Shown: in pieces, positions 8,677 to 26,555 of the stretch
How positions within the stretch are numbered: the first letter of the stretch is position 1
Layout: each line of letters starts with the position of its first letter
Assembly: GCA_947039395.1 (NCBI GenBank)
Contig: CAMQYS010000017.1
Coordinates: 1 to 39,814 of the forward strand
Origin: an uncultured Deferribacteraceae bacterium
Lineage (GTDB): Bacteria > Chrysiogenota > Deferribacteres > Deferribacterales > Mucispirillaceae
DNA: 39,814 nucleotides
Reading direction: 5' to 3'
Notes under the pieces: model-generated
What the model was told of the DNA's origin: nothing
Database searches by the model: none
What the model saw: only the letters and a program-made list of their open reading frames with translations
Program-made: the position numbers and the translations under genes

Positions 8677-11421
8677 ATGAAACTAAAATCGTTATTATTA
8701 TTTTTAGTTTTTGGTGTATTTGTTTCTTGTCAGAGTGATGAGATAGGTTCAAATAGTTATCCAGCTAAGATTGGATTTTATGATTACGATATGAGTGGTA
8801 ATCATCGTGATACAGGTAATAACTTATCATCGGGTGATTTAACTGGTAGAGTACAATTTGGACAAACTCATACGGTTGAGCCTAAAGGTAACGCAGAGTT
8901 ATTTTTGCCAGATATAATATCTGAACGAGAAGCACTTCTTATATTTATGCCAACAGATGATATAGCATCATCAATAAATGATATAAGTGTTGAGATTATT
9001 TTAGATGGAACAGTTAAGACTACATTGCAATTAAGCTCACCGATAGATATTCCTAAGTCAGATAATTTTGTTAAAACAGATCATGAGATTGTATACTCTA
9101 CAAAAGCGTGGACAACGGAGATTTCATGGCAGTATATGAAGAAGGGTTTAGAGTTAAGGTTTATATCTAATAAAGATGATGTATTAGAGAAAGAGGGTAC
9201 GCTTTCAGCAAACGATATAGAGTTTGCTGCACCATCGTTAGGTGTATTTACATTTATAAGACTCGGAATGTTATCAGAATATAGATCAAGTGGTAGCGGG
9301 TATATGTTGGATAGTCCCGGTAAAGCTATGGCAGATTACTTTCAAACTGCACCGTTTGCACAGATCGTGAATGCAAAATATGATAATATAAGTTTAAGTA
9401 AAGTAATGTTGGCTAATGGAACGATATATGATTTAGCCTCTTCACAGATGAGAGATAGATTTAGTAGAAGTATAGGTAGTGTTTATGCAGGAGATATGAG
9501 AGGAAATGTTGCAAAATCTCAAATTAGTGTTGGAATAAATCTTGCTAATTTTGGATATCCAAGTTGGGATATGTCGCAATCTTATCCGAAACATCATTAT
9601 TATATGACTACTCATTTAGCACAAGGTAGGTATCAACATACAGCTAATGGAAAATTAGTTGATTTACCTGCTGATAATGATTGGAATTCTGAGGATTATT
9701 CATCAGTTATTGCACACGGATTAAGTGGTGGTAACGGTATCGGTACATTATTGAGTACAACAGGTAATGAGTTTAGTCATGAAGTTGGACACGCTTACGG
9801 TTTAGGACATTTTGTAAAACCAAATAATAAACCAGCTTTTTGGACACATCACCATGCAGATAGCGGTTGGGGATACGATGTTTACAATAAGATGTTTAAA
9901 GGTAATCTATTATGGAATACTAAAGCAGATCAAGTTAAAGCTGATAACAATTTTATCGGCAAATATAACTATACTCCAGATACTATGTCGGGAGGATACG
10001 GTTCAAGTAAAATTTCTGTATACACTCGTTTAACAGGTTATACATTGATGAAAGCACAACAGTATGTTACAGCGCTTAGTCCGACTATAGTACCTAAATT
10101 ATACGGTGGAGTTGATGAGAATAAATCAAGTACAGGATTTTTAAAATGGGATAAAGAGAAGAGAGAGATGATAGAGTATCCTGCTCCAAAATGGCCAGAG
10201 ATATATAATGTAGTTCATGATACACCTTTTAATCCTTATAGGATCGGTGTTCCAGTTATAACATTGCTAGGTGCTTATATACCTGATGATCTTACTAACC
10301 CTGAAAGTAAAGCTGTTTTATATCCAGCCTTTAGAGGTAACTACGGAAATGTATATAATTTTCCTGCACCAGATAAAAGAGAGAAAGCATGTTGGGTAGA
10401 GGTTAAGTATGAAGATGGCACTAAAAAAGAGATAGTTATCGCACCAACTATGCATAAGGCAAATGTGATTGCAAATCAGTTACATATTAATATTGAAATG
10501 GCTCTAAAGCCTAACAAAGCAACTATATATTGTAAAGAAGCAGGGGGAGGAGCAGTTAAATTAGGTAATCATATAGATATAGCTACAAATCTTCCAGCTA
10601 TGGATCCTGCTGTAATTATAGGAAAAGAAGCTGGCTATGAGGCTGCGTATAAAGAAGATATTAAGTGGCTTAATCAAGTACTACCAAAGTACGATGACAC
10701 AAAACTATTTATACCGTTATTAACAGATGCAGAGTCTACTGCTTTATTAAGAGTTAAGGATAGGCTTAGTAATTTAAACTCATCTGCTAAAAAGGTTGCT
10801 GATCAACATATAAAACTTTTAAATGAACGTGATACTGTTATAGATTTTATAGATTTAAATAGTTTAAAATTATCGTCAAACGATACTGATAGTAAGAACG
10901 CACTGTTAAAACTTTTAGTTGATAAGGGGTTTATTACAAACGGTTCTACTCCTTCTATTGATAGAAATTATATTACTAAATTAAAAGAGGGAGGTAATAG
11001 GTGTATAGATTCAGAGTTTCCAACCACCACACCTATGTGTGTTGATAATAAAAGTAGTCAAGAGTGGATAATAGATGGTGTTGGTAAGATACACTCTGCA
11101 ACATCTCCAAATTTATGTTTATACGATGGTAGATCGTATCTTTCTGTAGTTAATTGTGATGATATGATACAATCTTCTACACAACATTGGGTTCTTGATA
11201 ATCAAGCAGAGAATAAATATCGTATTAAGGGTAGTTTAGAATATTGGAGATGTATTGACTACGCTTCTAGTTTAGGAAAATTTATAACTTATAACTGCCA
11301 TACAGGTGGAAATCAGCGGTTTGAAATTATAACTAAAGCTGAAACAACTGGCTGGAATAATAAGTTACTAACTATTATCCCTAGTAAAGAGTTGAAAATT
11401 ATATATGATCTTTTTAAGTAA
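8677..11421 (+). CDS. StcE-like M66 mucin metallopeptidase lipoprotein with C-terminal ricin-type lectin
   Basis: A 914-residue secreted protease predicted to cut mucin-type O-glycoproteins. The N-terminus MKLKSLLLFLVFGVFVSC is a lipoprotein signal (Cys18), so the enzyme is probably tethered to a membrane. Residues ~50-330 match the StcE/TagA region (VQFGQTHTVEP, EALLIFMP). The metzincin zinc site NEFSHEVGHAYGLGH has His368, Glu369, His372 and His378; YTPDTMSGG (Met437) is a plausible Met-turn. Residues ~760-900 form a ricin B-type beta-trefoil with CIDSEF, NLCLYDG, QEW, QHW and RCIDYA blocks, likely binding sugars. The HExxHxxGxxH motif separates it from M60 enhancin-like mucinases. It is a single gene with an AAAGGAAG ribosome site and its own terminator. 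Substrate is inferred from family. Confidence 0.9.
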   Translation: MKLKSLLLFLVFGVFVSCQSDEIGSNSYPAKIGFYDYDMSGNHRDTGNNLSSGDLTGRVQFGQTHTVEPKGNAELFLPDIISEREALLIFMPTDDIASSINDISVEIILDGTVKTTLQLSSPIDIPKSDNFVKTDHEIVYSTKAWTTEISWQYMKKGLELRFISNKDDVLEKEGTLSANDIEFAAPSLGVFTFIRLGMLSEYRSSGSGYMLDSPGKAMADYFQTAPFAQIVNAKYDNISLSKVMLANGTIYDLASSQMRDRFSRSIGSVYAGDMRGNVAKSQISVGINLANFGYPSWDMSQSYPKHHYYMTTHLAQGRYQHTANGKLVDLPADNDWNSEDYSSVIAHGLSGGNGIGTLLSTTGNEFSHEVGHAYGLGHFVKPNNKPAFWTHHHADSGWGYDVYNKMFKGNLLWNTKADQVKADNNFIGKYNYTPDTMSGGYGSSKISVYTRLTGYTLMKAQQYVTALSPTIVPKLYGGVDENKSSTGFLKWDKEKREMIEYPAPKWPEIYNVVHDTPFNPYRIGVPVITLLGAYIPDDLTNPESKAVLYPAFRGNYGNVYNFPAPDKREKACWVEVKYEDGTKKEIVIAPTMHKANVIANQLHINIEMALKPNKATIYCKEAGGGAVKLGNHIDIATNLPAMDPAVIIGKEAGYEAAYKEDIKWLNQVLPKYDDTKLFIPLLTDAESTALLRVKDRLSNLNSSAKKVADQHIKLLNERDTVIDFIDLNSLKLSSNDTDSKNALLKLLVDKGFITNGSTPSIDRNYITKLKEGGNRCIDSEFPTTTPMCVDNKSSQEWIIDGVGKIHSATSPNLCLYDGRSYLSVVNCDDMIQSSTQHWVLDNQAENKYRIKGSLEYWRCIDYASSLGKFITYNCHTGGNQRFEIITKAETTGWNNKLLTIIPSKELKIIYDLFK

Positions 11422-17101: not shown

Positions 17102-17209
17102 CTATTTTTTACATTGATAATTAGAGATTTTTTCTGCAACTTCTTGCACTTTTAGAGGGTTATTTAAGTTGTTATATATAGCGTGAAGTATATTAATATA
17201 TTTTTGCAT
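17102..17209 (-). CDS. Small ORF, 35 residues, function unknown
   Basis: An ATG at 17209 is preceded by a strong AAGGAG at eight bases, better than many larger genes in the window. It opens a 35-codon frame starting MQKYINILHAIYNNLNNPLK and ending EVAEKISNYQCKK. It is basic, helical in character and without a membrane segment. The YxxLNxPLKVQEVAEK stretch resembles the first helices of a winged-helix DNA-binding domain, so it may be the stump of a regulator or a real small protein. It lies between the MATE pair (opposite strand) and a methyltransferase (same strand, upstream). Confidence 0.5.
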   Translation of the reverse strand: MQKYINILHAIYNNLNNPLKVQEVAEKISNYQCKK

Positions 17210-17329
17210 GTAAACCACTCCTTTTTATAAAATATATAATCTAAAATCTACCTAGTTGATATAAAATGTTAATGTGATTTATTAGGTTGTGTGATTTTGA
17301 TAATTACTTAACTAAAATATAATATTAAA

Positions 17330-17956
17330 TTAGTCACGTGGTTTTCTTCCAACGATCATACATTCAAAAAGCAATCCATCTTTTATTATTGATTGTTCAA
17401 CTATATCAAACTTATTTTCTTTTATAAAATTAGTGAATGTACTTGAAGTCCATTTATTATAAGTACGATACCCCAATCTATTCATAATGAACAACGCTAC
17501 TCTAGGTACTTTCATATTTTTTTCATATATAAATGTTGGTGCAAAAATTAAACCGTTCGGTTTTAATACTCTATATATTTCAGCAAGAGCTAGATCAGGG
17601 TTTGGCATAATATGTAAAGCGTTTGCTATAAGTACAGCGTCAAATGAATTTTCATTGTATGATAAATTTGTGGCATCTTCTACTGAGAATGAGATGTTTG
17701 TTATAGTGGATTGTTCTTTAGATTTTGATATCATTTTTTCAGAAAAATCTGTCGCATTCCATGATGCAACTTTATCTGCTAGCAAAGAACTTAGATATCC
17801 TGTACCACATGCAAGCTCTAAAACTGACATATTTTTATCTAAATATTTAGAAGTGATTGTACTAATTTCATTATACGCTAGAGTATTATTTCTCATAAAA
17901 AGTGTATATATTGAGGCAACTCTATCCCAGAATTTTTTATTTGCTTTATCTTTCAT
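17330..17956 (-). CDS. Class I SAM-dependent methyltransferase
   Basis: A 208-residue cytosolic methyltransferase of the UbiE/methyltransf_11 type. Motif I is VLELACGTGYLSSLL (about residues 45-59), motif II is SFDAVLIANALHIMPNP, and motif III is EIYRVLKPNGLIFAPT. The N-terminus KFWDRVASIYTLFM is typical of small-molecule methyltransferases. Only a weak AAGAGAT precedes the ATG. The acceptor cannot be told. It is separated by over 200 bases from the pseudaminic-acid operon and is probably not part of it. Confidence 0.85.
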   Translation of the reverse strand: MKDKANKKFWDRVASIYTLFMRNNTLAYNEISTITSKYLDKNMSVLELACGTGYLSSLLADKVASWNATDFSEKMISKSKEQSTITNISFSVEDATNLSYNENSFDAVLIANALHIMPNPDLALAEIYRVLKPNGLIFAPTFIYEKNMKVPRVALFIMNRLGYRTYNKWTSSTFTNFIKENKFDIVEQSIIKDGLLFECMIVGRKPRD

Positions 17957-18174
17957 AATTGTTTATCTCTTTTAAAAGTTAATTTGTCTAGTGAAACAGT
18001 TTTTCAGAAGTGTAAAATATCTGATCATAGTAGATGACTTTCAGTTAACTTTATTAAATGTACCGTAGCGAACCAATGATGTCAATGAAACATTACACAG
18101 TAATTTTATAATTTTAATTGATAGTGAGTTTTTAGTTTTAAGGATATGATCGCTATCTAATTTTATAAATAATA

Positions 18175-19212
18175 TTAATCTATCATATCGAGTGATAACG
18201 GCGTTGCAAACTTAATATCAGTTTTAGCTTTCTTACCTAAAATATCAGTATAATGTTTTGTGTTAAGTCCATGTGCTGGACGGATAGATTTAATATTATC
18301 TTTAGTAAAGATATCACCTTTTTTAATATCAGTTGATGAAAAGAGTGAACGTCTTTCAATCAGTTTAGATTTCATATTAGGCGATAAAGTGTAATCAGTA
18401 ATGCCCAGTGTTCGCTCAACCATTCGTATTTTATCTACCATTATTTTAAACTCTAAAGGACGCATTGAGAATGCAGAGTCAACTGTATCCTCATCATCTA
18501 ATGTTAAATGTTTCTCTATAACTTTAACGCCAAGCGGGATAGATGATGTTGCAACCAGATCTCCTAATGTGTGATCTGATAACCCTATATGTAGATTAAA
18601 TCTCTCTCTCATATCTGTTATAAGATTAAGGTTTACTTCATCAATCGGAGTTGGATACTCTGATGTACATTTAAGTAGAATAATATTTTCATTGCCTTCC
18701 ATTTTACAAATATTTACAGCCTCTTCAATATCTTGAAGCGTTGCAAGTCCAGTTGATATAAGCATAGGTTTCTGCTTACTTGCAGTGTATCTTATTAGGT
18801 GGATATCGTTTATTTCAAATGATGCAATCTTATAACACGGCATATCTAACTCTTCTAAAAAATCAACTGCATCTGTATCAAATGGAGATGAGAAAAGAAT
18901 TAAGCCTAATGATTCAGCGTAATCTTTCAACTCTTTATGCCACTCATAAGGAGTTGATGCAATCTTATATAATGAGTATAAAGTATGTCCTTTCCATAGA
19001 CTATTATCATCAAGTTTAAATAGTTTGTCGTTAGAGTTAAGTGTCATAGAGTCAGGTGTGTATGTTTGAAGTTTGCAAGCATCAGCACCAGCATCTTTAG
19101 CAGCTTTAATAATTTCAAACGCTCTTTTAATTGATCCTTTATGATTACCTGATAGTTCTGCTATTATAAAAGTTTTTGAATTTTGATCTATTGTGAAATT
19201 AGAAATTTTCAT
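18175..19212 (-). CDS. pseI: Pseudaminic acid synthase (NeuB family)
   Basis: Condenses phosphoenolpyruvate with 2,4-diacetamido-2,4,6-trideoxy-L-altrose to form pseudaminic acid, a nonulosonic acid used on flagellin or surface polysaccharide. The 345-residue protein has an N-terminal TIM barrel with FIIAELSGNHKGS, CKLQTYTPDSMTLNS, LYSLYKIASTPYEWH, LKCTSEYPTP and VIEKHLTL, then a C-terminal SAF (antifreeze-like) domain from about residue 288 (RRSLFSSTDIKKGD...IRPAHGL). QTYTPDSMTL and TPYEWH are closer to Campylobacter PseI or Bacillus SpsE than to sialic acid NeuB. It is the last gene of a minus-strand operon, 30 bases after spsF. A legionaminic-type product is the alternative. Confidence 0.88.
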   Translation of the reverse strand: MKISNFTIDQNSKTFIIAELSGNHKGSIKRAFEIIKAAKDAGADACKLQTYTPDSMTLNSNDKLFKLDDNSLWKGHTLYSLYKIASTPYEWHKELKDYAESLGLILFSSPFDTDAVDFLEELDMPCYKIASFEINDIHLIRYTASKQKPMLISTGLATLQDIEEAVNICKMEGNENIILLKCTSEYPTPIDEVNLNLITDMRERFNLHIGLSDHTLGDLVATSSIPLGVKVIEKHLTLDDEDTVDSAFSMRPLEFKIMVDKIRMVERTLGITDYTLSPNMKSKLIERRSLFSSTDIKKGDIFTKDNIKSIRPAHGLNTKHYTDILGKKAKTDIKFATPLSLDMID

Positions 19213-19242
19213 ATATACGTATGTCCTAATAATTTTACTGTT

Positions 19243-19971
19243 TTATGTTTTTTTCTGCTCAACATGTTTATTTATATTTGCGAGATCTCTATTATTATCT
19301 AGAAGATTAACAACATCTTTAATATCTATAATTTCGCCTGTTTTATATAATCTTTTATAGATCTCTGTGATTAATCTGAAATCATCTTTTTCATCGACTG
19401 TTAATCTATATTTGCGTATATAGTATTCCTCTATTTTAGGAGATAGGATTTTGTATATAGTAGGGTTATGGAGGATATGTAGAGTCACATGTTCTCTCTC
19501 AGAAATATCTGTAACTGTACTATTTAATTTTTCTAGTAACTGAAATGATAAGACTTCATTATCTAGCCCTCTAATTAACTTATCAGAGGATAGAGGCGAC
19601 ACAAGATCGTAATCGCCATTGATATATAGATCGATATCATAATCTACAAGTTTAGGACATATTAATGGACAGTCAGCAGTAATTCTTACGATAACATCAG
19701 CGTTATAATGTTTAGCAGTTTCATAATATCTATTTAGTACATCAGCCGATGAGCCTCTGAAATATTTATAACTATTTTTTTGAGCAAACTCTTCAACTAT
19801 ATCATCGTTTGTTTCAGTAGTAGTAGCTATGATAATATCATCAAGATTTTTACATTTTGTTAGTCGAGTATATATATGTTCTAGCATGAGTTTATCTTCA
19901 AGTTTAGATAATATTTTACCAGCTAATCTAGTTGATCCCATTCGTGCTTGAATAATCACTACTTTTTTCAT
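19243..19971 (-). CDS. spsF: SpsF-like cytidylyltransferase
   Basis: A 242-residue nucleotidyltransferase fold protein starting MKKVVIIQARMGSTRLAGKI, the CMP-KDO synthetase/SpsF signature. DDIIIATTTETNDD, FRGSSADVLNRYY and VIVRITADCPLICP, which includes the metal-binding acidic position, follow. By family it should activate the nonulosonic acid made by the neighbouring PseI as its CMP-sugar, taking the place of PseF, as spsE-spsF do in Bacillus. The activity is inferred from this pairing. It sits between the methyltransferase (33 bases upstream) and pseI (30 bases downstream), so the genes are one transcript. Confidence 0.85.
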   Translation of the reverse strand: MKKVVIIQARMGSTRLAGKILSKLEDKLMLEHIYTRLTKCKNLDDIIIATTTETNDDIVEEFAQKNSYKYFRGSSADVLNRYYETAKHYNADVIVRITADCPLICPKLVDYDIDLYINGDYDLVSPLSSDKLIRGLDNEVLSFQLLEKLNSTVTDISEREHVTLHILHNPTIYKILSPKIEEYYIRKYRLTVDEKDDFRLITEIYKRLYKTGEIIDIKDVVNLLDNNRDLANINKHVEQKKT

Positions 19972-20004
19972 ATCTTAATATCTTCTTTTAATTATAAATT
20001 TTAA

Positions 20005-20670
20005 CTATTTTTTTACAGCAGATACAATATACCATGAGTTGTGAGAAGATAAATTATCTTTCCAGTAATCTTCACGCTCAATATAATCTATATTAAAACC
20101 TGTATCATCTAATAGTTGCTCAATCTCTTCTTTATTATAAAATGTATACATAGCATTTTTATAAGGTTTTTTATCTAGTAGATAACTATTTTTAGATACT
20201 TGTTTGCCTTGTTTATATAAATAATCATCTTTACTTCTAAAAGTAATAATCATTTTACCATCTTTATTAGTTATATTATATAATTTATTTAAACCACTAT
20301 ATACCTTGTCTTCTGTTGTCAAAAATATAGTGCCACAGAATATAATAAGATCAAATTTTATATCACCAAAATCGTAATTATTATAATCTCCAACATAAAG
20401 ATTTTTTAAGCTGTTTGTATCATTAAAAGTTTTTTCAGCTACTATTTTACACTCTTCAAAATAATCTATACCGTATGTATCAAATCCGTAATCAAGAGCA
20501 ATTTTAAGATGTCTACCAGATCCAAAACCGATATCTAACGCTTTTTTATTAGAGTTGTCAGAGTTTGAAAATTTTCTACCCATAAATTGTGCTATTCGCT
20601 CATTAGGATATAACATCACATTTTTCTTTATTGTATCTTTCCAAAAGTTAATTAAAACTTCGTTCCCCAT
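20005..20670 (-). CDS. SAM-dependent methyltransferase of the nonulosonic acid operon
   Basis: A 221-residue class I methyltransferase. Motif I is ALDIGFGSGRHLKIAL (about residues 44-59), followed by YGIDYFEECKIV with the acidic residue that binds the SAM ribose, DLIIFCGTIFLTT and NKDGKMIITFRS. Its ATG begins one base beyond the stop of the upstream ATP-grasp frame (20672-20674), so translation is probably coupled. By context it would methylate the nonulosonic acid or an intermediate, as in flagellar glycan clusters that pair ATP-grasp, methyltransferase, SpsF and PseI genes. Its expression may depend on whether the upstream phase-variable gene is read through. Confidence 0.85.
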   Translation of the reverse strand: MGNEVLINFWKDTIKKNVMLYPNERIAQFMGRKFSNSDNSNKKALDIGFGSGRHLKIALDYGFDTYGIDYFEECKIVAEKTFNDTNSLKNLYVGDYNNYDFGDIKFDLIIFCGTIFLTTEDKVYSGLNKLYNITNKDGKMIITFRSKDDYLYKQGKQVSKNSYLLDKKPYKNAMYTFYNKEEIEQLLDDTGFNIDYIEREDYWKDNLSSHNSWYIVSAVKK

Positions 20671-20671
20671 A

Positions 20672-21902
20672 TTAAAGCACCTCTATCTTGATATAATTTA
20701 AAATATCTATATTTTTTTCTATTAATTTTTCGTAACTATCATCTGATATGATATAGTAACCTCTTGATAATAGTTCTCGTCCACTAACTATTATATCAAG
20801 GTAATCACCTTTTTTCATCACAATATTTATTTCATCTATATCAAAAGTATACTTTAATTTCTCTATATCTAGATCGTTACTGATATATTTATTTTCTATA
20901 TCTATGTATCTAAGTAATGAAGGTTTTTTATGTCTTTATGTATAAAATTATAGTTATTGCCTAGCTGATATCTTATAAATTCATACAGCCCCCCCCCCCC
21001 TTAGTTTGTAAGGCTGTTAATTTATTTATTATATTTAAACCAGCAGGTCTAGGAGATATTTCTATCACATAAGGGGTATTATTAACTAACATCATATCTG
21101 CATTTATCATACAATCTTTTAATAAAAGTTTATCTGTTATTTTATTAAGATATTGCTTTACTTTTTCTTTTACTATCTTGCTTATATTTGATGGAGATAT
21201 ATACTGTATTTCTTGTCTGTAAGGAAGAGAGGTTAGAAGTTTATCTCTTACGTTAAAAAAAACTACTTCACTATTAACAACTATAGCATCAACACCTATC
21301 TCTTTAATATTTTCATCAATGTTTGGATCTCCTAAAAACTCTTCAATAATTAGTTCACCGTAGTTACTTGTTTTATAATTTTTAATATACGATAGAGCAT
21401 CTTCACAAGAGTTCACAACAAGTACATCGTTAGATCCAGAGCCGTATCGTGGTTTGATTATTACTGGAAAATTGAAAGATTTTTCGAGTTCATATTTTAA
21501 GTTAGAAGAGTTACTATTAATTTGTTTTGCAAGATTATAAGAGTTTTTATCATCTGTTAAAATAGAGTTTAGAAGTTGTTTATCTGCACAAATAGTGGTT
21601 GCGTACGCTTTAGGTCCTATTAGATTTAATTTTTCGTTTATATATCCAATAGTAGTGATATATCTACCAACAGGAGCAGGAAGAATAGCTTTAATATTAT
21701 GTTTTTTTGCGATATCTAATACTTTATCAGCATCTTTGATATCTATTGCATACTGTTTAACATCTGATGGTATATCTTGATTTATATCCTTACCTACAGC
21801 TATCACTTTACAGCCCATAGATTTAGCGATATTAATTGAATAGATCTGTTCTTGCCCGTTACCAACGGATAGTACACTGATATGATTGTAGTTACTTAGC
21901 AT
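20672..21902 (-). pseudogene. ATP-grasp protein, frame interrupted at a poly-G tract (phase-off or decayed)
   Basis: The frame from ATG 21902 gives 309 residues. There is an N-terminal pre-ATP-grasp fold (ISVLSVGNGQEQIYSI) and ATP-grasp core (FPVIIKPRYGSGSNDVLVV, ELIIEEFLGDP, MINADMMLVNNTPYVIEISPRP). It then enters 12 G (20989-21000) and stops six residues later. With 13 G the frame would continue LYEFIRYQLGNNYNFIHKDI. One more A in the A6 run at about 20924-20929 would then join it to KKPSLLRYIDIENKYI and onward to a TAA at 20672-20674, for 410 residues. The distal part, with KKGDYLDIIVSGRELLSRGYY, looks like the normal C-terminal domain. ATP-grasp enzymes ligate carboxylates to amines or thiols; here the sugar is the likely substrate. 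Alternatives are sequencing error or a dead gene. Confidence 0.75.
20989..21000. repeat. Homopolymer tract of 12 C (+) / 12 G (coding strand)
   Basis: Twelve consecutive C on the plus strand in an AT-rich genome, inside the ATP-grasp coding region exactly where the frame breaks. Tracts of this length are known slipped-strand hotspots for phase variation in surface glycan genes of Campylobacter and Helicobacter. Confidence 0.95.
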
Positions 21903-22003
21903 GACTTAAATTTTACTAGATTTAAATATCTATGTCAAGTTGTGCATACTGTAAAAGCTTTATCGCAATACCATTATAAGCTTAATAATTTATTTATATA
22001 TCT

Positions 22004-22873
22004 TTACTTCTTCAAACTAACTCTATATTTAACTTTCATTATATCGGGATAGTATGTTGATTTAGCTTGTCTTAAAGTATCTTTACCAAGATCTTGTTCG
22101 AAGTTTATATACTCATATTTATCGAGTAGAATTTTCGCAAGTGAGTTATATAGATGTTGATAGATCCCTTTATATTCTTTTGATCCTTTTGCAAAATGTA
22201 GAGCGTATGTGTTATCTTTCAACTCTTCTCCGAGCACAAAACCGATCGGTTTATTATTAACGTAAGTTATGTATCCTATTAGGTGTAGTTCATCAAATTT
22301 TTCAACAGCTTCTTTCGTTTCATTGTAATCGGCGGTTGAACCATCAAGTACACTTTCTTTCAGCCAAATATCTAATACTTTTATCGCATCTTTACAATTA
22401 TCTTTACTGATTAACTGAACTCTATGATCTGGATAGTTTGTATTAAACTGTTTTAATAGGTTACGTTTTTTAGATAATTTTCTTCCGGGAAATAAAGCAA
22501 GTCTTTCTGTTTTATAGATATAATCAGAGTCGCCGTCAACATATGTATAGTTAAAAAACTCTTCTGGAAAATATTTAAGCCAATCCTCTTCAATAGGAAA
22601 GAAACAATCGACATTTTCAGCGAGATATTTTAGAGTATCGAGTGGTATTTTGCTTAATGCACAAACAGGTGTTAAGTAGCTAGCATTATCGTATGTAACC
22701 CCTTTAAGCATAGTGCAGTTATCGCAGATTGCGATTTCATATTTATGAGGTTTCCTAAAAAGGTAAGCGTTAGTAAAACTATATTCAGATAAGTAAGAGT
22801 TTTTAGCACGGAGTCTTTCTGCAACTAACTCACGATCGCTATACTCTAACTCTTTAAAAATCATTCGTGTCAT
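22004..22873 (-). CDS. DUF2156 (phosphatidylglycerol lysyltransferase C-terminal-like) protein
   Basis: A 289-residue cytosolic protein with the tandem GNAT fold of the DUF2156/LPG-synthetase C-terminal family. It begins with the typical SDRELVAERLRAKNSYLSEY and YLFRKPHKYEI, has KTERLALFPGRKLSKKRNLL near the middle, and GFVLGEELKDNTYALHFAKG, YKGIYQHLYN and NFEQDLGKDTLRQAK in the C-terminal half. LPG synthases use this domain to transfer aminoacyl groups from tRNA to lipid. Stand-alone soluble members like this one have no established substrate. Its start overlaps the stop of the upstream MATE gene by four bases, so the two are translationally coupled and probably act together. Confidence 0.85.
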   Translation of the reverse strand: MTRMIFKELEYSDRELVAERLRAKNSYLSEYSFTNAYLFRKPHKYEIAICDNCTMLKGVTYDNASYLTPVCALSKIPLDTLKYLAENVDCFFPIEEDWLKYFPEEFFNYTYVDGDSDYIYKTERLALFPGRKLSKKRNLLKQFNTNYPDHRVQLISKDNCKDAIKVLDIWLKESVLDGSTADYNETKEAVEKFDELHLIGYITYVNNKPIGFVLGEELKDNTYALHFAKGSKEYKGIYQHLYNSLAKILLDKYEYINFEQDLGKDTLRQAKSTYYPDIMKVKYRVSLKK

Positions 22874-24360
22874 AAAATTTCCTTAATCCATTTTCTAGAT
22901 CTTAATCTTCTAAATGTTAAAATTGCTTGTACAAAGAATCCGATAGTTAAACCGAACCATATACCAACAGATCCGTATTGTAATACGATACCGAAAAAAT
23001 ATGCAATAGGAATTCTAAATATCCACACAGTTATAACGGAATATAACATCGTAGCTCTAGTATCTCCAGCTCCAGTTAGCCCACCAGCAACAGCTAAGTT
23101 TAATGCTATGAAAGGTTCGGCTATCATACTTATATAAAGGTAGATGATAATTTCATCAACAACTGCTTCTTCTTTAGAGAGCATTGATGCAAGTGTTTCT
23201 GCGTTTAGTAGTACGATTACGGCTAAAATTATATTTATAACAACAGATATAAAAGCTGTTGTTAATACACTTTTATACGCTTCATCGTACATTTTTCTGC
23301 CCATAAGGTTTCCCATTATCGTAACATTTGCCATATTGAAGGCGAACGCTGGGAGATATATTGCAGACTCAATCCTTAAACCTGTAGCGTATGCAGCAGC
23401 AGCTATTGTTGCAGTGTTATTAGATATTGTAGTACCAACTGATGTTGCATTATCAGATAAGATCGTTGTTATAGTTGATGTATTATCAGAGAGTGCAGTA
23501 ACTACTGATGATGTAGCAGCTATTACTTCTGTACTATCAGGCAGTGATCCTATGATAAAATATATTAATATAGATGCTAATTGCCAACTGCTTGCGATGA
23601 TTGCAGAAGGCCAGCCGACTTTTAATATACTTTTTAATAAACTAAGCGAGAAACTATATGTTTTTTCTAACAGATTATAAACTTTTTTTGATGATATAAT
23701 AAACGATAGCATAATAGATACTGTTGTAGATAATGCTAAACCTCTAAACCCAAGAGGGGTATAAAATACGAATAAGATATTTAATCCGATATTTAATATA
23801 GCAGATAGAAACACTATTTTCATAACAAGTTTCATCATTCTACAAGATCTAAGGATTCCGTTTAGTGTAACGTAGATAAGATGACAAAATAACCCTACTG
23901 CATAAATTTCTAATAAAGGTTCCGCGTATACAGCTATTTCAGGTGGTGCATTCATAAACTCTAATAGAGATTTAGAGAATAAGACTCCACCAACTGATGC
24001 AACAATTCCAAGTACACAAGCTGATACAACAGCTGTAAATATAGCTTGTTTAAACTTTAATGGTTCATTAGCAGAGAATAACCTTGATACGATAGATACC
24101 GTTCCAGTCGTTATAGCATACCCTATCATTATAAAAAAGAAGTATACCTGTGTTGCAATTCCAACAGCTGCTTGTATCTCTTTATTCAATCTACCAGCAA
24201 TATAAATATCTGTCATACTTATTGCAAATTCGAAGAACATAATTGCAAGCATAGGCCAACTAAGTTGCCAACTTTCTTTTAAGTATGAATATATGTTACC
24301 ATCGCTAATCATTTTTTTAATTTTTTGCTTAACATTGAGGATTTTTTCATGTAACATCAT
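22870..24360 (-). CDS. MATE-family transporter with an internal repeat insertion
   Basis: A 496-residue twelve-helix MATE transporter, only distantly related to the tandem pair at 14145-17037. The first half starts WPMLAIMFFEFAISMTDIYIAGRL; the second half has YATGLRIESAIYLPAFAFN and GAGDTRATMLYS, typical of NorM-like members. Between helix 6-7 boundaries (about residues 275-325) it carries an unusual Ser/Thr/Asn-rich stretch built of 11-residue repeats (TSSVVTALSDN, TSTITTILSDN, ATSVGTTISNN), see the repeat entry. This explains the length above the usual ~450. It overlaps the DUF2156 gene by four bases. The divergent heme operon starts 74 bases away. Substrate unknown. Confidence 0.9.
   Translation of the reverse strand: MMLHEKILNVKQKIKKMISDGNIYSYLKESWQLSWPMLAIMFFEFAISMTDIYIAGRLNKEIQAAVGIATQVYFFFIMIGYAITTGTVSIVSRLFSANEPLKFKQAIFTAVVSACVLGIVASVGGVLFSKSLLEFMNAPPEIAVYAEPLLEIYAVGLFCHLIYVTLNGILRSCRMMKLVMKIVFLSAILNIGLNILFVFYTPLGFRGLALSTTVSIMLSFIISSKKVYNLLEKTYSFSLSLLKSILKVGWPSAIIASSWQLASILIYFIIGSLPDSTEVIAATSSVVTALSDNTSTITTILSDNATSVGTTISNNTATIAAAAYATGLRIESAIYLPAFAFNMANVTIMGNLMGRKMYDEAYKSVLTTAFISVVINIILAVIVLLNAETLASMLSKEEAVVDEIIIYLYISMIAEPFIALNLAVAGGLTGAGDTRATMLYSVITVWIFRIPIAYFFGIVLQYGSVGIWFGLTIGFFVQAILTFRRLRSRKWIKEIL
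23383..23514 (-). repeat. 33-bp in-frame tandem repeat inside the MATE gene
   Basis: Three clear 33-bp units (23482-23514, 23449-23481, 23416-23448) and a diverged fourth (23383-23415). Each encodes eleven residues ending in SDN or SNN in the first three. The units have drifted from one another, so the expansion is not recent. The unit length is a multiple of three and keeps the frame. Confidence 0.85.
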
Positions 24361-24433
24361 GTTATATGAGATAGCATATATCTTTGGTATTGAAAAGAGA
24401 TATATTGCTGTGATTTTAAGAAAGGGATTATAA

Positions 24434-25261
24434 ATGTTTATATCGTACGCTTTAATGGTTTATATCTTAGCTTTTCTGAACATATTGTTAAGAGTTTTTA
24501 TCAGCTCAAAAATAGCTGTAATTTTAGCTATAGTTTTTTCATTAATAGGTTTAGGGCTAAATATTCATGAAATAGCAATAAGATATGTATTAGTTGGTGG
24601 TTTTCAAACATCTACATTATTTGATTTCTCTATTTTTTTATCTATTGCGTTTAATTTAACTTTTTTGTTTCTATTTTATAGATATAAAAAGGTAGTTATC
24701 GGTTTGTTTTTGATACCATTTTCTATTATGTTTACAGCTTTATCAATGTTTACACAAGTATCAGAGCTTCCAAGTACAGTATATTCTTTATGGAGATTTG
24801 GACATCTTCCATTTGTTATAATGGGTTCAACTTTTTTCATAGCATCGTTTATTTCATCTATTATGTATCTTATACAAGACAATAATTTAAGACTTAAAAG
24901 GTTTGGTAAGTTATATAAAGTTTTTCCATCTCTTGATACACTGAATAATATAAATAATATTAGTATGAGAGTAGGGTTCTATTTTTTCACAATAGGATCT
25001 ATATTAGGATTTTTATGGATAGTACAGATAGCAGAAGTTAATGATATTAGTTGGTTTAAAGCTTTACAATTTATTTTATCCGCATATCCGTCCTTTTTTA
25101 TATTTAAGATAACATTTTCAACGATAACATGGATATATTTTGCGATATTAATATTAATAAAGGTAAAGTATGGATTGCCTCCAAAGAAGTTGGCGATGTT
25201 TACAGTAATAGGTTTTTTCTCCGTGATATTAACATACATTGGTGTTGGGGTATCGTTATAA
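24434..25261 (+). CDS. HemX/CcsA-like cytochrome c assembly membrane protein
   Basis: A 275-residue inner-membrane protein with about eight hydrophobic helices. The central LWRFGHLPFVIMGSTFFIASFISS and the cytosolic loop LKRFGKLYKVFPSLDTLNNI, followed by MRVGFYFFTIGSILGFLW, match the HemX/CcsA family. Members next to hemA (HemX) affect glutamyl-tRNA reductase levels; CcsA members handle heme for cytochrome c. The tryptophan-rich heme motif (WGxxWxWD) is not obvious, only ISWFKALQF in its place, which favours a HemX-type role. AAAGGGAT lies five bases before the ATG. It heads the tetrapyrrole operon, 16 bases before hemA. Confidence 0.82.
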   Translation: MFISYALMVYILAFLNILLRVFISSKIAVILAIVFSLIGLGLNIHEIAIRYVLVGGFQTSTLFDFSIFLSIAFNLTFLFLFYRYKKVVIGLFLIPFSIMFTALSMFTQVSELPSTVYSLWRFGHLPFVIMGSTFFIASFISSIMYLIQDNNLRLKRFGKLYKVFPSLDTLNNINNISMRVGFYFFTIGSILGFLWIVQIAEVNDISWFKALQFILSAYPSFFIFKITFSTITWIYFAILILIKVKYGLPPKKLAMFTVIGFFSVILTYIGVGVSL

Positions 25262-25277
25262 TGTTTAGGGTATTAAG

Positions 25278-26555
25278 ATGTATTTAACTCTATTAGGTTT
25301 GAACCATAATTCAGCGTCTATTGATATAAGAGAACAGTTTGCTATACAGGAAGATCAGTATAATAAGTTATACAAGACTATCCTATCTAAAAATGTATCA
25401 GAGTGTTGTATCTTATCTACTTGTAACAGGGTAGAGTTTTATATTTTTACAGATGAAGATATAAGCAAAGATATCTTTTTAGAGATTATAGAAGATGCGA
25501 TGAATGTTGATAGAAGTAAATTAGATGAACACTCATATCATAAAAGTGGTAGAGAGGCGATACAACATATCTTTTTTGTCGCATCAGGGATAGATAGTTT
25601 AGTTGTAGGTGAGCCGCAAGTACTAGGACAAGTTAAAGATGCTTTTCAAAGAGCTAAAGATAATTTTGCGATATCTAATTTTATGCTACATCTTCAAGAT
25701 TACACATTAAAGATCGCTAAAAAAGTTAGAACAGATACAGGTATATGTAATAATCCAGTATCAGTTAGTTATGCAGCGGTTGAGCTTGCTAAGAAGATAT
25801 TTGATAATCTAAGTTCTGCATCAGCACTTGTTATAGGTGCAGGAGAGATGTGTGAGCTTGCAATAAAACATTTTGTTACATCTAAGATAGGTTCAATCAT
25901 CGTCACTAACAGAACTTATGAAAAAGCGTGTACTCTTGCTAAAGAGTTTAATGCTACAGCTATTGAGTTTGATAAATTTTCATCAGCATTAGAAGAGGTT
26001 GATATAGTTATAAGCTCAACTGGTGCAGATTATTTTATTATTAATCACGATAGAATGGCATCAATTATGAGTAGTCGTAAACATAAGCCTCTATTTATTA
26101 TTGATATTGCAGTACCAAGAGATATAGATCCTGAAATTTCTAAGATAGATAATGTATATCTATACGATATTGATGACCTTAGGCAAATAGTTGAATTGAA
26201 TAAAAAAAGTAGAGATAAAGAGGCTAAAAAAGCTGCAGAAATAATAGATGTGGCTATAAGTAAATTTTATAAAAGTGTTGAAGTAATGAAAATTAATCCT
26301 GTCTTGAAAGATGTGAAAGATTTCTTTATAAGTACGAAGGATAGTGAATTAATAAAATATCTTGAAAAGAATAAAATTGATAATAAAGATGAAATAGCTA
26401 AATTAGATACTTTTTTATCATCTGTTATAAATAAACAGTTACATAACCTTTTCACAAATATTAAAACAAATGTAGATTCCAAAAAGATACATACATTAGC
26501 AGATGCAGCAAAGATAATATTTAATCAAGAAGAAATAGATAACAGTGAGAAATAA
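25278..26555 (+). CDS. hemA: Glutamyl-tRNA reductase
   Basis: First committed step of C5-pathway heme synthesis: reduces glutamyl-tRNA(Glu) to glutamate-1-semialdehyde with NADPH. The 425-residue protein starts LTLLGLNHNSASIDIREQF and has the catalytic cysteine in ILSTCNRVEFY (Cys49). GIDSLVVGEPQVLGQVK and the NADPH-binding ALVIGAGEMCELA follow, then DIAVPRDIDPEI and a C-terminal dimerisation helix region. Length is normal. It follows HemX by 16 bases and hemC begins three bases after its stop. hemL, the next step, is not in the window. Confidence 0.97.
   Translation: MYLTLLGLNHNSASIDIREQFAIQEDQYNKLYKTILSKNVSECCILSTCNRVEFYIFTDEDISKDIFLEIIEDAMNVDRSKLDEHSYHKSGREAIQHIFFVASGIDSLVVGEPQVLGQVKDAFQRAKDNFAISNFMLHLQDYTLKIAKKVRTDTGICNNPVSVSYAAVELAKKIFDNLSSASALVIGAGEMCELAIKHFVTSKIGSIIVTNRTYEKACTLAKEFNATAIEFDKFSSALEEVDIVISSTGADYFIINHDRMASIMSSRKHKPLFIIDIAVPRDIDPEISKIDNVYLYDIDDLRQIVELNKKSRDKEAKKAAEIIDVAISKFYKSVEVMKINPVLKDVKDFFISTKDSELIKYLEKNKIDNKDEIAKLDTFLSSVINKQLHNLFTNIKTNVDSKKIHTLADAAKIIFNQEEIDNSEK

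Follow-up and report, generated by a model that had tools for sequence, protein, structure and literature searches.

The window, a stretch of 39,814 nucleotides from a Mucispirillaceae genome, carries on its minus strand a series of genes in the order MATE transporter, LPG_synthase_C-domain protein, ATP-grasp protein, methyltransferase, cytidylyltransferase, PseI and a second methyltransferase. The reading frame of the ATP-grasp gene closes at a homopolymer of twelve G residues, and the remainder of the gene is distributed over two further frames. The features concerned, in the direction of transcription, are the following:

21910..21938, minus strand: promoter-like TTGACA-17-TAAAAT immediately before the ATP-grasp start (weakly supported)
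20973..21902, minus strand: ATP-grasp open reading frame of the window allele, cut short at 309 aa and covering the N-terminal and catalytic part (PF13535)
20989..21000, minus strand: 12-G homopolymer (C12 on the plus strand) at codon 301 of the ATP-grasp frame, a candidate tract for slipped-strand mispairing
20930..20988, minus strand: middle piece LYEFIRYQLGNNYNFIHKDI in a third frame, at the orthologue position IYDYYINQLLN
20924..20929, minus strand: A6 run at which the frame breaks a second time (A7 in the sister genome G001)
20672..20923, minus strand: C-terminal ATP-grasp piece in another frame, 83 codons plus TAA, no internal stop (by BLASTP to the orthologue in genome G005)
20005..20670, minus strand: SAM-dependent methyltransferase (PF13489), its ATG one base after the ATP-grasp stop
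19243..19971, minus strand: PseF-like cytidylyltransferase, CTP_transf_3 (PF02348, 104.6 bits)
18175..19212, minus strand: PseI-type pseudaminic acid synthase (TIGR03586, 464.9 bits; equivalog cut-off 340.25)

The ATP-grasp frame starts at 21902, reaches the tract at codon 301 and meets a stop 9 codons after entering it; the C run on the plus strand is exactly 12 residues long. An earlier note on this DNA had placed a 12-G tract at the very point where the frame collapses, which these coordinates confirm. The frame passes the Pfam gathering scores of two ATP-grasp families, PF13535 (40.9 bits, cut-off 27) and PF02655 (31.9, cut-off 23.2). The gene is thus an ATP-grasp gene by descent, and the product of the window allele is truncated, with the complete C-terminal part missing. 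A promoter scan at the threshold that yielded the TTGACA-17-TAAAAT element found 4 sites against 3.9 expected; if this weakly supported element were used, its closeness to the start would make the mRNA nearly leaderless or place the true start further in.

According to pattern searches, from which all genome run counts were taken, the tract is the only G/C run of at least 11 residues in the 2.11-Mb window genome, the remaining long runs being four G7, two G8 and two G9. A first-order Markov estimate based on the composition of the window predicts about 0.0003 runs of at least 12 and about 0.1 runs of at least 9 residues per genome, ruling out a chance origin of the tract. The tract also exceeds the poly-G length shown to switch in Campylobacter jejuni (at least 8 G; PMC6321876). 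When the gene was read virtually with G runs of 7 to 17, product length followed run length modulo 3, amounting to 305-310 or 331-334 aa.

The C-terminal piece bears out the proposal that the missing domain is encoded downstream in another frame. In a single BLASTP comparison it matched residues 302-375 of the intact, 385-aa orthologue in G005 with 35% identity (E=4e-10), and none of 2000 shuffles scored as high; homology of this frame to ATP-grasp proteins, on which the earlier note had made its reading depend, is therefore present. In two genomes this frame stays open for its 83 codons, whereas the two alternative frames contain 9-16 stops. As the note had also stated, the piece ends one base from the next gene (TAA-T-ATG before the methyltransferase). 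The frame collapse at the G tract proved more complicated than described: the tract and the frame change are there, but the frame is broken twice, at the tract and again at the A6 run. The middle piece between the two breaks lies at the expected place of the orthologue, and its alignment on its own did not score above shuffles. None of the virtual products, the longest of which had 334 aa, reached the C-terminal piece. Because of the second break at the A6 run, a change in the tract would not by itself give an open full-length gene in the window assembly, and the simple claim that it switches the window gene by itself is ruled out for this assembly over G runs of 7 to 17. The A6 break may be an error of assembly, or else the window allele may have begun to decay.

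An intact counterpart is available from G005, a Mucispirillum-type genome assembled as a single contig of 2,347,083 bp, in which the same four genes (ATP-grasp, methyltransferase, cytidylyltransferase and PseI) follow each other in the same order. The window ATP-grasp protein is 36% identical to the G005 orthologue over 287 columns, its N-terminal part matching orthologue residues 4-270 (E=3e-52), and the neighbouring methyltransferases share 44% identity. The G005 gene has an independent in-frame G10 at codon 184, a site at which the window gene lacks a G run. Moreover, in G004, a member of a third genus, a different ATP-grasp glycan gene (contig 32, L201:10766-11725), flanked by aminotransferase and glycosyltransferase genes, loses its frame at a G9 and continues in another one for the C-terminal part; read as one, the pieces before and after the break match 4dim_A over query residues 2-395 (E=9e-69). 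Poly-G runs thus occur in three genera, at three sites and in two ATP-grasp glycan genes, a recurrence that makes decay hard to accept as their cause. The solved structures closest in sequence to the window and G005 proteins are 4dim_A, 3vot_A and 4wd3_A, deposited as a phosphoribosylglycinamide synthetase and L-amino acid ligases; the relationship is remote (E about 1e-9 to 1e-14), and their substrates are not transferable. AlphaFold, run on the single sequence of the G005 orthologue, gave a model with a pLDDT of 38 that was not used.

The PseI gene of the window is the only one above the cut-off in its genome. Contig 5 carries together PseB (over its cut-off), PseC (475.5, cut-off 423.5) and a Maf/PseD-like gene; the last, of the Maf type (MptE-like), passes the PF01973 cut-off and matches the PseD model below that model's own cut-off. 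The window cassette thus complements a pseudaminic acid and flagellin-glycosylation locus elsewhere in the genome, with the ATP-grasp and methyltransferase genes as putative extra tailoring genes. In the main pseudaminic acid locus of relatives, a formyltransferase/acetyltransferase-like gene carries a G9 (L211:6069-6251 in G005; L164 in G009); the G005 copy is only a short remnant in front of an acetyltransferase.

Long G runs are abundant in the family at large. Outside the window's genus, seven of the family's eight near-complete genomes contain 29-64 runs of at least 9 G, where about 0.5 would be expected, and they have few G7 or G8 runs. In G005, five exact G7 and six exact G8 runs stand beside 43 runs of at least 9 residues, against a Markov expectation of 16 runs of at least 7 and 0.5 runs of at least 9. 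Among ten further genomes of other genera (G004 and G006-G014), eight have 20-64 runs of at least 9; the exceptions are G010 with 13 and G014, a 57%-complete genome, with 2. Within the window's genus the number is 0-4 per genome, G002 having none. The 101 runs of G005, G009 and G011 comprise 78 G9, 19 G10 and 4 G11, a peak at 9 and 10 residues like that of the Campylobacter phasome, in which 53% of runs are G9 and 26% G10 (PMC6321876). Of these 101 runs, 44 lie inside an open frame of at least 150 aa, and the genes concerned include MBOAT acyltransferases, glycosyltransferases, lipoproteins, a HAMP-domain protein and DNA methylases. The idea that the runs are sequencing artefacts only was rejected for G005, given its single 2.35-Mb contig, the clean flanks of the runs and their orthologous places in other species; some contig-end runs (C87 and C121 of G001) may be such artefacts. 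The suggestion that other surface genes of the genome might carry poly-G tracts holds weakly for the window genome itself (two G9 and two G8, mostly at Shine-Dalgarno positions) and strongly for the sister genera.

About a fifth of the 101 runs lie in a promoter-like setting. An exact TTGACA precedes the C run by 0-8 nt in 20 of the 101 runs, compared with 0.22 expected, and in 1 of 536 C4-6 runs. Nearly all of these 20 also have a -10-like hexamer 14-19 nt downstream. As the C run lies between the two hexamers, its length sets the spacer, which mostly measures 15 with C9, 16 with C10 and 17 with C11. Promoters of this design, often upstream of lipoprotein genes, were seen at L079, L088, L090, L145, L148 and L149 (G005), at L120, L160-L162, L165, L166 and L171 (G009) and at L181, L186 and L199 (G011).

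We consider it quite likely that the Mucispirillaceae (Deferribacterota) possess a genome-wide poly-G phasome whose number of runs, run lengths and classes of genes match those of Campylobacter. It would include a dedicated class of promoters made switchable by the order TTGACA, 1-5 nt, C9-11 and -10 hexamer, as well as DNA methylase genes with poly-G runs as candidate phasevarions, and the window gene would be an outlying member. The G12 run in the window gene is probably a random on/off switch. More specifically, we suggest with moderate confidence that it is a hypermutable contingency tract that toggles the first gene of the ATP-grasp, methyltransferase, cytidylyltransferase and PseI cassette, and that the sampled allele is OFF. 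Slipped-strand mispairing would alter the length of the run, and the ATP-grasp enzyme would alternate between a full-length form of about 390 aa and a truncated form without the C-terminal part. By sequence the enzyme belongs to the ATP-grasp ligase superfamily, which has amino-acid-ligase and carbamoyl-phosphate-synthase-like members. Most likely it adds an acyl or aminoacyl group of small size to a sugar of the pseudaminic-acid type that is bound for the cell surface, and the target of the decorated sugar is probably flagellin. In the OFF state, translation of the methyltransferase might be partially lost, as the 1-base spacing between the two genes suggests. The tailoring toggle envisaged by the earlier note is thus upheld as regards the cassette, with PseI above its cut-off and PseB, PseC and PseD/Maf-like genes elsewhere, and falls short in that the tract alone does not restore the protein. 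Recurrence of the runs, the cassette, the conserved and homologous C-terminal frame, the long G run of the sister genome at the same place and a length far above chance favour a contingency switch; the A6 break, the OFF state of both alleles and the small number of poly-G runs in the window's genus speak against it.

The second allele comes from the sister species G001, whose assembly shows a run of 16 G and then 64 bases that form a degraded copy of the window's 65, a pattern we would expect when reads lose phase in a long homopolymer or one of mixed length. The tract thus measures 12 and 16 residues in two species as assembled, the G001 figure being unreliable. The N-terminal ATP-grasp frame is closed in G001 as well; its A7 at the A6 site stands in the degraded sequence behind the tract. 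As assembled, the two alleles known from the genus are therefore both OFF, at the very place where the assemblies deserve least trust. Conceivably, these are homopolymer errors in draft or metagenome-assembled genomes, and the living gene is intact with a shorter or different fixed run. The two assemblies of the genus that carry the gene consist of 64 and about 160 contigs, with G001 labelled a metagenome-assembled genome, and both the degraded sequence after its run and the discrepancy between A6 and A7, typical of homopolymers, fit such errors. Yet the window's G12 has clean sequence on both sides that is homologous to the orthologue, assembly as 12 and 16 with degraded sequence thereafter would hardly be expected of a truly short run, and the single-contig G005 has many such runs, one of them in this very gene; we consider this explanation improbable. 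Somewhat less improbable, though still unlikely, is a decaying pseudogene that has suffered two independent homopolymer indels, at G12 and A6, and whose G run would be left over and no longer act as a switch. In favour of decay are the doubly broken frame of the window allele, a sister allele that is likewise out of frame and the absence of a close homologue of the gene from G002 and G003. It is harder to reconcile with a C-terminal frame that stays open over 83 codons in two genomes at 35% identity to an intact orthologue, or with dN/dS values between the window and G001 of 0.23 before and 0.36 after the tract (0.31 for the methyltransferase), although changes are few and the C-terminal value, resting on 13 of them, is still compatible with neutrality. 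Decay also leaves unexplained the length of the G run and its recurrence in other ATP-grasp glycan genes.

A further possibility, which we regard as very improbable, retains the G tract as a switch and has the A6 break bridged during expression, with ribosomal or transcriptional slippage supplying the C-terminus whenever the tract is in phase, in a two-level switch. The sequence A AAA AAC forms a -1 slippery heptamer in the frame of the middle piece, the -1 frame is that of the C-terminal piece, and A-rich heptamers are known slippage sites (PMC3711429); however, such heptamers are common in AT-rich genomes, and the A7 of the sister genome would need no slippage. In a comparison of the window (17200-25400) with G001 (L023), the cassette is mostly 92-99% identical and the flanking genes 84-92%, which is consistent with recent exchange of the glycan cassette between the two species.

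The contingency switch that we favour has counterparts in known systems. In C. fetus, the ATP-grasp gene CFT03427_1510 (G 9-10) is a putative phase-variable gene, listed beside the SAM-dependent methyltransferase CFT03427_1512 (G 8-9) (PMC6321876). As in the window, a poly-G run in an ATP-grasp gene near a methyltransferase gene is predicted to turn expression ON or OFF by slippage; unlike the window, C. fetus belongs to a different phylum and has documented between-strain length variation, and the likeness is one of description, not of protein comparison. The proposed switch would work like Cj1295 of C. jejuni, in which a change in the state of a homopolymeric tract alters pseudaminic acid decoration on flagellin (PMC3068675), but Cj1295 is not an ATP-grasp protein, and its switching and the glycan change have been shown experimentally. 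Poly-G contingency genes, the putative phase-variable C. fetus gene and the control of pseudaminic acid decoration by Cj1295 are thus known (PMC6321876, PMC3068675).

Neisseria porA, opc and fetA undergo phase variation through promoter spacers. Mucispirillum-type genomes resemble them in placing the run between TTGACA and the -10 hexamer; the window differs in that its run is intragenic, promoter-spacer runs being a feature of its relatives. In the literature searched, outside which most subscription journals lie, no paper on phase variation in Mucispirillum or Deferribacteres came up, and the Deferribacterota phasome appears to be undescribed in that literature. With no prior report found, the family-wide phasome is a stronger discovery than the window gene. 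Poly-G contingency genes are a hallmark of the mucus-dwelling Campylobacter and Helicobacter, the Mucispirillaceae are a lineage of vertebrate-gut mucus, and Mucispirillum serves widely as a marker and model in studies of inflamed gut. If the phasome is real, an unrelated phylum in the same mucus would have converged on stochastic surface switching as a niche adaptation, and each mouse would harbour Mucispirillum as a mix of surface variants, with consequences for immune and phage studies.

Several further observations were made in passing. No viral contig among those scanned contained the tract flanks or the switchable-promoter pattern. In the window's genus, G8 or G9 runs lie 2-8 nt before the ATG, at the Shine-Dalgarno position, of ankyrin-repeat, Sel1-repeat and lipoprotein genes (L104, L110, L112; L105 in G001). 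Type III-like DNA methylase genes of G009 (L170, PF01555) and G011 (L200), the candidate phasevarions, carry in-frame G9 runs at different codons. G037 and G024, from another family of the order, gave 417 and 53 overlapping G9 matches, which may be contig-end artefacts or another phasome. Paralogous Tat-signal oxidoreductase-like genes of G005 (L081, L083, L155, L052) have in common a G9 just after the signal peptide (IIYGGG), and at least one of them is open and others are closed. Finally, the plus strand of the window encodes at 8677-11421 a 914-aa protein with Peptidase_M66, TagA and ricin-lectin-like domains that resembles secreted mucin-acting metalloproteases.
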